A stretch of 64,000 nt of DNA from Mycobacteriales bacterium (lineage in GTDB: Bacteria > Actinomycetota > Actinomycetes > Mycobacteriales > SCTD01): the NCBI GenBank assembly GCA_030447385.1, contig JAUJOY010000004.1, forward strand, positions 229,150-293,149. Reading direction: 5' to 3'. Numbering within the stretch: position 1 is the first letter of the stretch; every line of letters starts with the position of its first letter. Positions 58,875 through 62,039 of the stretch are shown here, one piece after another. The position numbers and the translations under genes are program-made. The notes beneath the pieces were generated by a model. It did no database searches and was not told the DNA's origin. It was given only the letters and a program-made list of their open reading frames with translations.

Positions 58875-58966
58875 GCGGGGAGCTCCTTCGACGGCAACCG
58901 GTGCCCCCCCGTCAACAGGATGCATGTCTACCCGCTTCCCGCGCCGCCGGCTGGGAGACTGCCGCC

Positions 58967-61058
58967 GTGGACGACGAGCGCACCGCGGACCGCATCCTGG
59001 CGGCCCTCGACGAGGACCAGCGCGAGGCGGCCCGTGCCGTGACCGGCCCGGTGTGCATCCTGGCCGGCGCCGGCACCGGCAAGACGCGCACCATCACCTC
59101 GCGGGCGGCCTACGCCGTGGCCTCCGGCGCCGTGCAGCCCGGCTCGATGCTGGCCGTCACCTTCACGGCGCGGGCGGCTGGTGAGATGCGCACGCGGCTT
59201 CGGGCGCTCGGCGCCGAAGGGGTGCAGGCGCGCACGTTCCACTCCGCGGCTCGACGGCAGCTCGGCTACTTCTGGCCACGGGTGATCGGTGGGGCCCCGC
59301 CCAGGCTGGTGGACAACACCTTCGGCCTGGTCGCCGCCGCCGCCTCCCGGGCACGGCTGAGCCCGGGCACGAGCGAGATCCGCGACCTGCTGAGCGAGCT
59401 GGAGTGGGCAGCGAGCACGCTGGTCGGGCCGGAGGACTACCCGCAGGCCGCAGCGCAGGCCGGCCGCCAGGGGCCGTACGACGAAGCTGTGGTGGCGCAG
59501 GTCTACGACGCCTACGTCCAGCTCAAGCAGGCGCAGGGGGTCGCCGACTTCAGCGACCTGCTGATGCTCACTGCGGGTGCGCTCGAGGAGCACGCCGGGG
59601 TGGCCGAGGAGTTCCGGGCCCGCTACCGCTCCTTCGTCGTCGACGAGTACCAGGACGTCACGCCGCTGCAGCAGCGCCTGCTCGACGCCTGGCTCGGCGG
59701 TCGCGACGACCTGTGCGTGGTGGGCGACGCCTCGCAGACCATCTACTCCTTCACGGGCGCCTCCGCCGACTACCTGCTGCGGTTCGGTCGCCGCTACCCG
59801 CACGCCAGGCAGGTACGGCTGGTGCGCGACTACCGCTCGACGCCCCAGGTGGTGACCCTGGCCAACGCCGTGATCGCCCAGGCGGCCGTGCGCTCCGCCC
59901 GGCTCGAGCTGGTCGCGCAGCGGTCACCCGGGCCGCCCCCGAGCTTCTGCGAGCACGACGACGCCCGCCGCCGAGGCCGCGTGCGTGGCCGACCGCTGCC
60001 GGGAGCTGCTTGCGGGCGGCACCCCGGCCAGCGAGATCGCCGTCCTCTACCGCGTCAACGCGCAGAGCGCGGGCTACGAGGCCGCGCTCGGTGACGCCGG
60101 CGTCCCCTACCTCGTACGCGGTGGGGCCCGCTTCTTCGACCGCGAGGAGGTGCGCAAGGCCGTGCTGCTGCTGCGGGGGGCAGGCCGCGCCGCGGACGAC
60201 GACGCGCCCGTGGGCCTGGCCGACCTGGTCGCGGACGTCCTTCGGTCCGGGCTGTCCTGGACGGTGGACCCCCCCGCAGGTGCCGGTGCGACGCGCGAGC
60301 GGTGGGAGTCGCTGGCCGCGCTGCACCGGCTGGCCGGCGACCTGGCCCGCGACCAGCCGGAGGCCGGGCTGCGCGAGCTGGTCGCCGAGCTCGAGGAGCG
60401 GGCCTCGGCCCAGCACGCGCCCGCCGTGGAGGGCGTCACCCTGGCCTCGCTGCACGCCGCGAAGGGGCTGGAGTGGGACGCGGTCTTCCTGGTGGGCCTG
60501 GCCGACGGCACCCTGCCGCTGGCGCTGGCGGACAGCCCGGCAGAGATCGAGGAGGAGCGGCGGCTGCTCTACGTCGGCGTGACCCGGGCGCGTTCCCGGC
60601 TGTTCCTGTCGTGGGCTCTGGCGCGCTCGCCCGGTGGGCGCGGGAGCCGCCGCCCGTCCCGCTTCCTCGACGGGCTGCACGCGGTCGCACGTCCGGCTCC
60701 GCCTCCCGGACGAGGCGGCGGTGCCGGCCGGCGCGACCGGGCCGGCACGCCGGCGTGCCGGGTGTGCCGCGCCCCCCTCACCGCAGCCGTCGACCGCAAG
60801 CTCGGCCGCTGCGGGCACTGCCCGGCGGACCGGGACGAGGCGCTGTTCGAGGCCCTGCGCTCATGGCGCTCGGAACGAGCCAAAGCCCTGAGCCAGCCGG
60901 CATTCTGCGTGTTCACCGACGCGACGCTGACGGCCATCGCCGAGCAGCGCCCGGGCACGGCGGCCGCCCTGGTCGCCATCCCCGGCATAGGGCAGGCAAA
61001 GCTGGACCGCTTCGGTGACGAGGTGCTCGCTCTGGTGGGCTCGAGCGACCCGACCTGA
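58967..61058 (+). pseudogene. uvrD2: UvrD2-like helicase split by an apparent frameshift near 59958-59975
   Basis: Frame of 58967-60094 carries [39 protein letters not shown]; homology continues in frame of 59985-61058 ([63 protein letters not shown]-terminal HRDC-like). Could be a sequencing error rather than a true pseudogene. Confidence 0.85.
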
Positions 61059-61077
61059 GCCGGCGAGAACTAATCCC

Positions 61078-61106
61078 TTGCGCGCTTCCGGACAGGCCTC
61101 TACCGT
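61078..61106 (+). promoter_or_regulatory. Putative whiB7 promoter (-35 TTGCGC, 17-bp spacer, -10 TACCGT)
   Basis: AACTAATCCC upstream of TTGCGC at 61078-61083; TACCGT at 61101-61106. Confidence 0.55.
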
Positions 61107-61152
61107 GCTCCTGCCGGTGCTCTCCGGCGTGAGGGGTCAGGAGGTGGACGAC

Positions 61153-61362
61153 ATGGGAACTCTGACGTGCATGCCGGCCTCCGCCCGCGCTGCCGGCGCC
61201 AGCCGCCTGCGTCGCACCCCGGCGCCGAACACCGCCGCGCACGCCACCGGTCTGTCCATCTCCGGTACGGCGGTCGCCGCTCCCAGCGCACAGGTCACCC
61301 TCCTGTTCGCCGCCGGCTACCTCGCCGACCCGGGTTCCCCTCCTCGAGGTGCACCGGTCTGA
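61153..61362 (+). CDS. Putative regulatory upstream ORF (uORF) in whiB7 leader, 69 aa
   Basis: AGGAGG at 61139-61144, ATG at 61153, stop TGA 61360-61362: MGTLTCMPASARAAGASRLRRTPAPNTAAHATGLSISGTAVAAPSAQVTLLFAAGYLADPGSPPRGAPV*. Confidence 0.6.
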   Translation: MGTLTCMPASARAAGASRLRRTPAPNTAAHATGLSISGTAVAAPSAQVTLLFAAGYLADPGSPPRGAPV

Positions 61363-61418
61363 CCCCAGACCGATCAGCGCCTCGAGGCCGCGGAACCCGA
61401 ACCGGGATCCGCGGCCTC
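61331..61418 (+). promoter_or_regulatory. Putative transcription attenuator: antiterminator/terminator pair upstream of whiB7
   Basis: Terminator stem GAGGCCGCGGA (61384-61394)/TCCGCGGCCTC (61408-61418) with inner CCCG-AAC-CGGG. Alternative pairing 61331-61338 with 61392-61399 and 61342-61349 with 61380-61387. Confidence 0.65.
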
Positions 61419-61542
61419 CTTGCGTTTCCGGGCTGCATTTCCTGGAGCTCTGCCCGCTCTGTCCACTGCCAGCTCCCCTCCGGGCCACCGCCCACGAATG
61501 ACCCCCAGGCCTACCGGCCGACCACGAAGAAGGTGAACCACG

Positions 61543-61827
61543 GTGCTCGCCACTCCCGACCTGAACCCGACCTCCGCTGCACCCTCCGACCCGGTCCTGC
61601 CCTGCTGGACGGCGGACCCCGACCTGTGGTTCGCCGAGTCGCCCCAGTCCGTCGAGGACGCCAAGGCGCTCTGCGTCCCGTGCCCGCTGCGGGAGGCGTG
61701 CCTGGCCGGTGCTCTCGAGCGGCGCGAGCCGTGGGGCGTCTGGGGCGGCCAGCTGGTCGTGCAGGGCGTCGTCGTCCCGCGCAAGCGGCCGAGGGGCCGG
61801 CCCCGCAAGGTCGACCTCGCAGCCTGA
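61543..61827 (+). CDS. whiB7: WhiB7-family Fe-S transcriptional regulator
   Basis: CW...CVPCPLREACLAGALERREPWGVWGGQLV and C-terminal AT-hook RGRPRK. Confidence 0.92.
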   Translation: MLATPDLNPTSAAPSDPVLPCWTADPDLWFAESPQSVEDAKALCVPCPLREACLAGALERREPWGVWGGQLVVQGVVVPRKRPRGRPRKVDLAA

Positions 61828-61871: not shown

Positions 61872-62039
61872 GTGTACCCCGCCCATCCCTCGGTGACGCT
61901 CGCCCGCGAGCAGCGCGAGCGGGAGCAGCGGGCGGCCGAGCACGTCCTGGCCGCCCGACTCGTACGCCTGCGCCGGCTGGACCGCCGAGCCGCGGCCGCC
62001 TCCGCGCGCGCCCGGCTGGCACGTCTGGCGCTGCAGTAA
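61872..62039 (+). CDS. Small basic/Ala-rich ORF downstream of whiB7
   Basis: VYPAHPSVTLAREQREREQRAAEHVLAARLVRLRRLDRRAAAASARARLARLALQ. Confidence 0.4.
   Translation: MYPAHPSVTLAREQREREQRAAEHVLAARLVRLRRLDRRAAAASARARLARLALQ

Follow-up and report, generated by a model that had tools for sequence, protein, structure and literature searches.

Between uvrD2 and whiB7, the window (the whole 64,000-nt stretch of DNA that was analysed) carries a leader that is very probably a ribosome-sensing transcription attenuator of whiB7. It is a further, well-preserved case of the established whiB7/wblC switch, here in an uncultured actinobacterium. The initial annotation had read the region as a uORF-controlled attenuator, and this reading is supported by the geometry of promoter, uORF and helices, by the covariation of both helices and by folding with a masked ribosome. 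Ribosome-controlled attenuation of whiB7/wblC has already been published (PMC9618640, PMC11550727, PMC4128351, PMC13236596). PMC9618640 and PMC11550727 credit the mechanism to Lee, Lee and Roe (2022, Mol Microbiol 117:179), and the mycobacterial whiB7 leader is described in PMC4128351.

The genome comprises 3.4 Mb in 13 contigs, with Frankiales MAGs as its nearest named relatives. The open reading frame behind the leader encodes a WhiB-family protein (PF02467 at 5e-15). Of the genome's seven WhiB-like matches it is the strongest, and genus-mates have a product with 78-88% identity to it behind the same leader; this identifies it as WhiB7. Among 61 relatives, 57 have the gene, as do 88 of 98 genomes from across the class. 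As for its neighbours, uvrD2 (58901-61058) is split over two frames, 58901-60094 and 59985-61058, with a break near 59900-60020 and its N- and C-terminal UvrD domains apart; this is a frameshift or an assembly error. Directly 3' of whiB7 lies an Arg/Ala-rich ORF of 55 codons (61872-62039) with a GTG start and an SD-like GGAGAAG just 5' of it.

Table 1. Features of the whiB7 leader in the window (all on the forward strand).
Feature	Position	Strand	Details	Basis
Promoter	61068-61106	+	AT-rich AACTAAT 61068-61074; -35 TTGCGC 61078-61083; -10 TACCGT 61101-61106	sequence, leader comparison
Shine-Dalgarno of uORF	61139-61144	+	AGGAGG	sequence; kept in relatives
uORF	61153-61362	+	69 codons; ATG 61153; stop TGA 61360-61362	
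Mid-uORF motif copy	61240-61260	+	CACGCCACCGGTCTGTCCATC; divergent at motif positions 5-6	
Antiterminator outer helix, 5' arm	61331-61338	+	CGGGTTCC	verified letters, covariation
Antiterminator middle helix, 5' arm	61342-61352	+	11 bp	verified letters, fold, covariation
Inner hairpin with uORF stop	61355-61372	+	two-sided changes at 5/7 pairs	verified letters
Antiterminator middle helix, 3' arm	61377-61387	+		verified letters, fold, covariation
Antiterminator outer helix, 3' arm	61392-61399	+	GGAACCCG	verified letters, covariation
Terminator hairpin	61384-61418	+	11 + 4 bp	verified letters, fold, covariation
Imperfect T-rich tail	61419-61429	+	CTTGCGTTTCC	sequence
whiB7	61543-61827	+	94 aa; Pfam WhiB PF02467; 78-88% identity in genus-mates	

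The promoter and the SD-preceded 69-codon uORF of the initial annotation were both confirmed letter by letter. The gap between AACTAAT and TTGCGC is 3 nt and the -35/-10 spacer 17 nt, so that the window shows the WhiB7-type order of an AT-rich element, 3 nt, a -35 element, 16-19 nt and TANNNT. From these elements a transcript start would be expected near 61113. WblC-activated promoters have the same layout, with an AT-rich element upstream of the -35 (PMC7157823). For comparison, 162 Actinomycetia leaders with a recognisable SD-preceded uORF were collected from relatives, class-wide genomes and 80 named loci; in the second set, 9 of the 80 loci gave no uORF under the criteria used. A TTGNNN-N16-18-TANNNT promoter stands 5' of the uORF in 150 of the 162, against 3.6 in mononucleotide shuffles, and the ten bases ending 3 nt before the -35 are 68% AT across these leaders, against a background of 36%.

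The uORF of the window ends just before the terminator, its stop codon lying within the inner antiterminator hairpin. This arrangement, with a long uORF overlapping the antiterminator, had been put forward as a specific layout; it turns out not to be special, since nearly all leaders end the uORF just ahead of the terminator. By length, too, 69 codons are ordinary, as the medians in two leader sets are 79.5 and 76 codons and the window's family spans 61-111. The uORF of L012, with 111 codons, contains imperfect repeats (AAVTPAAVRA), and the motif discussed below is not recognisable in it. A GGCCGCGG-like terminator arm follows within 120 nt of the uORF stop in 156 of the 162 leaders, at a median distance of 24 nt (5-95% range 17-29 nt), a spacing count that is partly circular in the second set, where the terminator arm also helped to choose among uORF candidates.

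All four pairings of the initial annotation hold letter by letter: CGGGTTCC with GGAACCCG in the outer antiterminator helix, CCTCGAGG (61342-61349) with CCTCGAGG (61380-61387) in the middle one, CGGTCTG (61355-61361) with CAGACCG (61366-61372) in the inner hairpin, and GAGGCCGCGGA (61384-61394) with TCCGCGGCCTC (61408-61418) in the terminator. Folding extends two of them, the middle helix to 11 bp (CCUCGAGGUGC/GCGCCUCGAGG) and the terminator by four pairs (CCCG/CGGG). The two structures had been said to share 61384-61394; this is true of 61384-61387 and 61392-61394, and the four positions between (61388-61391) are unpaired in the antiterminator. Both structures are far beyond chance: the antiterminator segment folds at -59.0 kcal/mol, against -38.4 +/- 3.2 in dinucleotide shuffles, and the terminator segment at -37.8 against -20.0 +/- 2.7 (z = -6.5 for both), and for neither did any of 200 shuffles reach the same stability. 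A search of the leader region in Rfam matched no family. A simple terminator scan of the leader returned no canonical terminator; the covarying hairpin is followed by an imperfect, T-poor tail, CTTGCGTTTCC, that fails this strict scan, and the tail consensus of relatives is near CTTTGnTTTTCC.

Covariation across orthologous leaders, proposed as a check, was found for both helices in 33 sequences. In the antiterminator, 82.8% of cells are paired and 13 of 23 pairs show two-sided changes (6.6 in shuffles); in the terminator the figures are 96.8% and 6 of 15 (1.6 in shuffles). Both counts exceed every shuffle, in a set whose non-family sequences were hand-picked for diversity and whose members are all related by descent, so that the counts are not independent events. 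Controls slid out of register lose paired cells sharply for both structures, and the covariation score of the terminator at slides of +2 and +3 comes close to that of the true register. Covariation is plainest in the inner hairpin, where one genus of the family has GCGCUG/CAGCGC in place of GGUCUG/CAGACC. Conservation is lowest in the outer helix, with 75% of cells paired. The window thus has a conserved antiterminator that overlaps the end of its uORF. The abstract of Lee et al. from 2022 reportedly speaks of conserved antiterminator structures in actinomycete subclades.

Folding with and without ribosome masking, another check that had been suggested, supports the switch. A masked ribosome at codons 62-70, around the stop, removes the antiterminator and lets the terminator form (probability 1.00, against 0.00 for the middle helix), and with the ribosome further upstream the antiterminator arms stay free. 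When the RNA has reached 61400-61405 behind an upstream-stalled ribosome, outer and middle helices both form with a probability of 1.00. Once the RNA extends past 61414, the outer helix can give way to the upper part of the terminator, which leaves the terminator's lower 4 bp in contest. In the equilibrium fold of RNA to 61425 with the ribosome upstream, the upper 7 bp of the terminator reach 1.00 and the lower 4 bp 0.80; therefore, energy alone does not predict antitermination. Since the energy model favours the terminator hairpin even without a ribosome, the decision would have to be kinetic, or to depend on the lower 4 bp adjoining the T-rich tail. The mutual exclusivity claimed at the outset is, in the energy model, kinetic rather than thermodynamic.

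This preference of the energy model, together with the strength of the predicted hairpin, would also suit a constitutive terminator between uvrD2 and whiB7, with the uORF and the upstream arms being incidental. Such a reading is very improbable, as the antiterminator arms inside the uORF covary with their partners, the spacing from stop to terminator is nearly fixed in most of the 162 leaders, and a dedicated promoter precedes the uORF. Translational control, in which the leader hides the ribosome binding site of whiB7, has the precedent that uORF-based translational attenuators are common for genes of resistance to ribosome-targeting drugs. We consider it just as improbable here: the binding site lies outside the structures, which end some 120 nt short of the whiB7 start (61543), and the hairpin conserved downstream resembles a terminator and has a T-rich tail.

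For transcription attenuation, the favoured reading, we propose the following course. A WhiB7-type promoter would drive the leader, and its uORF would be translated. As comparison or computation shows, a ribosome reaching the uORF stop covers the antiterminator's 5' half and the terminator hairpin forms, whereas after an earlier stall the antiterminator folds completely before the 3' arm of the terminator is made. The folded antiterminator would then need to last long enough, holding the bottom 4 bp of the terminator open, for the polymerase to read through into whiB7, whose product may reinforce its own promoter. Work on Streptomyces and Mycobacterium points to antibiotics or amino-acid shortage as the probable inducing signals.

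The attenuators of Streptomyces and Mycobacterium, as described in PMC9618640, PMC11550727 and PMC4128351, share with the window the gene, the promoter type, a translated uORF, an intrinsic terminator that separates the uORF from whiB7, and an antiterminator formed upon stalled uORF translation, which is here predicted. Compared with these descriptions, the window differs in sequence details only, namely an uncultured Frankiales-type lineage, a 69-codon uORF and a three-helix antiterminator. Similarly, in the trp and M. tuberculosis ilvB1 attenuators (PMC13236596) a ribosome at the stop favours the terminator and an upstream stall the antiterminator. Unlike those leader peptides, the whiB7 uORF is long and does not repeat a single regulatory amino acid in a run; the stimulus for whiB7 leaders is general translation stress.

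An iterative search seeded with family sequences revealed that about 40% of whiB7 uORFs have a motif, (CA)GGGGACNNGTNYGTCC, in their middle. The window copy, which lacks two of the G residues, scores 21.1, and no other site on either strand of the window scores higher; the L011 leader has the consensus in full. A matrix from the first leader set gives many second-set uORFs, among them those of Streptomyces, Nocardia, Pseudonocardia, Cellulomonas and others, scores well above those of codon-shuffled uORFs; the same scan found no motif in the uORFs sampled from Mycobacterium or Nocardioides. The 99.9% shuffle level of the second set is exceeded by 68 of the 162 uORFs, 56 in frame 0, 9 in frame 1 and 3 in frame 2. 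In L016, from the window's family, the motif nucleotides are kept in another frame and read QETSVL instead of GTGLS. In four Pseudonocardia leaders (L117, L119, L122, L126) a motif-like site (WTGVSV and similar) begins 51 nt before the uORF end, a shorter distance than in any other sampled lineage. The exact consensus occurs in 7 of 198 and 5 of 299 genomes, in samples that share some genomes. Of these 12 hits, 7 adjoin whiB7 and another lies within a long protein-coding frame (L110); the idea of a general genomic word was rejected.

Because selection by matrix could bias third bases, uORFs were re-selected by peptide only, counting the preceding Q/H/K codon as codon 1. Among the 53 uORFs, with closely related species entered separately, the third base is T at codon 4 in 47 (9.9 expected), G at codon 5 in 49 (27.4 expected) and C at codon 6 in 45 (27.6 expected). 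Much of the remaining uORF is highly divergent, and the third-base bias therefore points to a constraint on nucleotides, kept across frames and at synonymous sites.

What the motif does is a matter of more tentative judgement. Most copies lie in frame 0 and read G-T/S/I-x-L/V/M-S/P, as would a conserved peptide (QGTGLS) that arrests the ribosome. This is unlikely, given that nine copies, L016 of the window's family being one, are read in another frame and give E(K/T)SVL-like peptides, that the residue at codon 4 varies (G, A, T, S, R, L), and that its third base is fixed well beyond codon usage. Pairing partners were also sought. A local hairpin (GGAC/GUCC) was dismissed, positions 8/15 and 6/17 changing without compensation, and pairing elsewhere in the leader is no better than for shuffled motifs (mean z 0.17 upstream, 0.06 downstream). 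GGTCTG is repeated in the window, where the motif could pair with the 3' arm of the inner hairpin; as a general rule this fails, several relatives with CAGCGC retaining GGTCTG in the motif. Our best guess, still a cautious one, is that the motif may be a second, frame-independent element acting as nucleic acid, possibly an RNA polymerase pause site that would keep the first ribosome close behind at the choice between antiterminator and terminator. The elemental pause consensus is G-10 Y-1 G+1 (PMC12288461). If the pause is set immediately 5' of the motif's invariant G, which is 61254 in the window, positions -11 and -10 are G, -1 is T/C and +1 is G, and G-10, Y-1 and G+1 occur in 60, 64 and 64 of 64 distinct sites, the window copy having C at -10. 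The motif is longer and more specific than this consensus; the match was noticed after the motif had been seen and the motif is G-rich, so the likeness is suggestive only.

The analysis adds an uncultured lineage to those with this known antibiotic-response switch and provides a comparative description of promoter, uORF, antiterminator and terminator over 162 leaders. If the motif is functional, whiB7 attenuators would have a built-in element besides their two hairpins.
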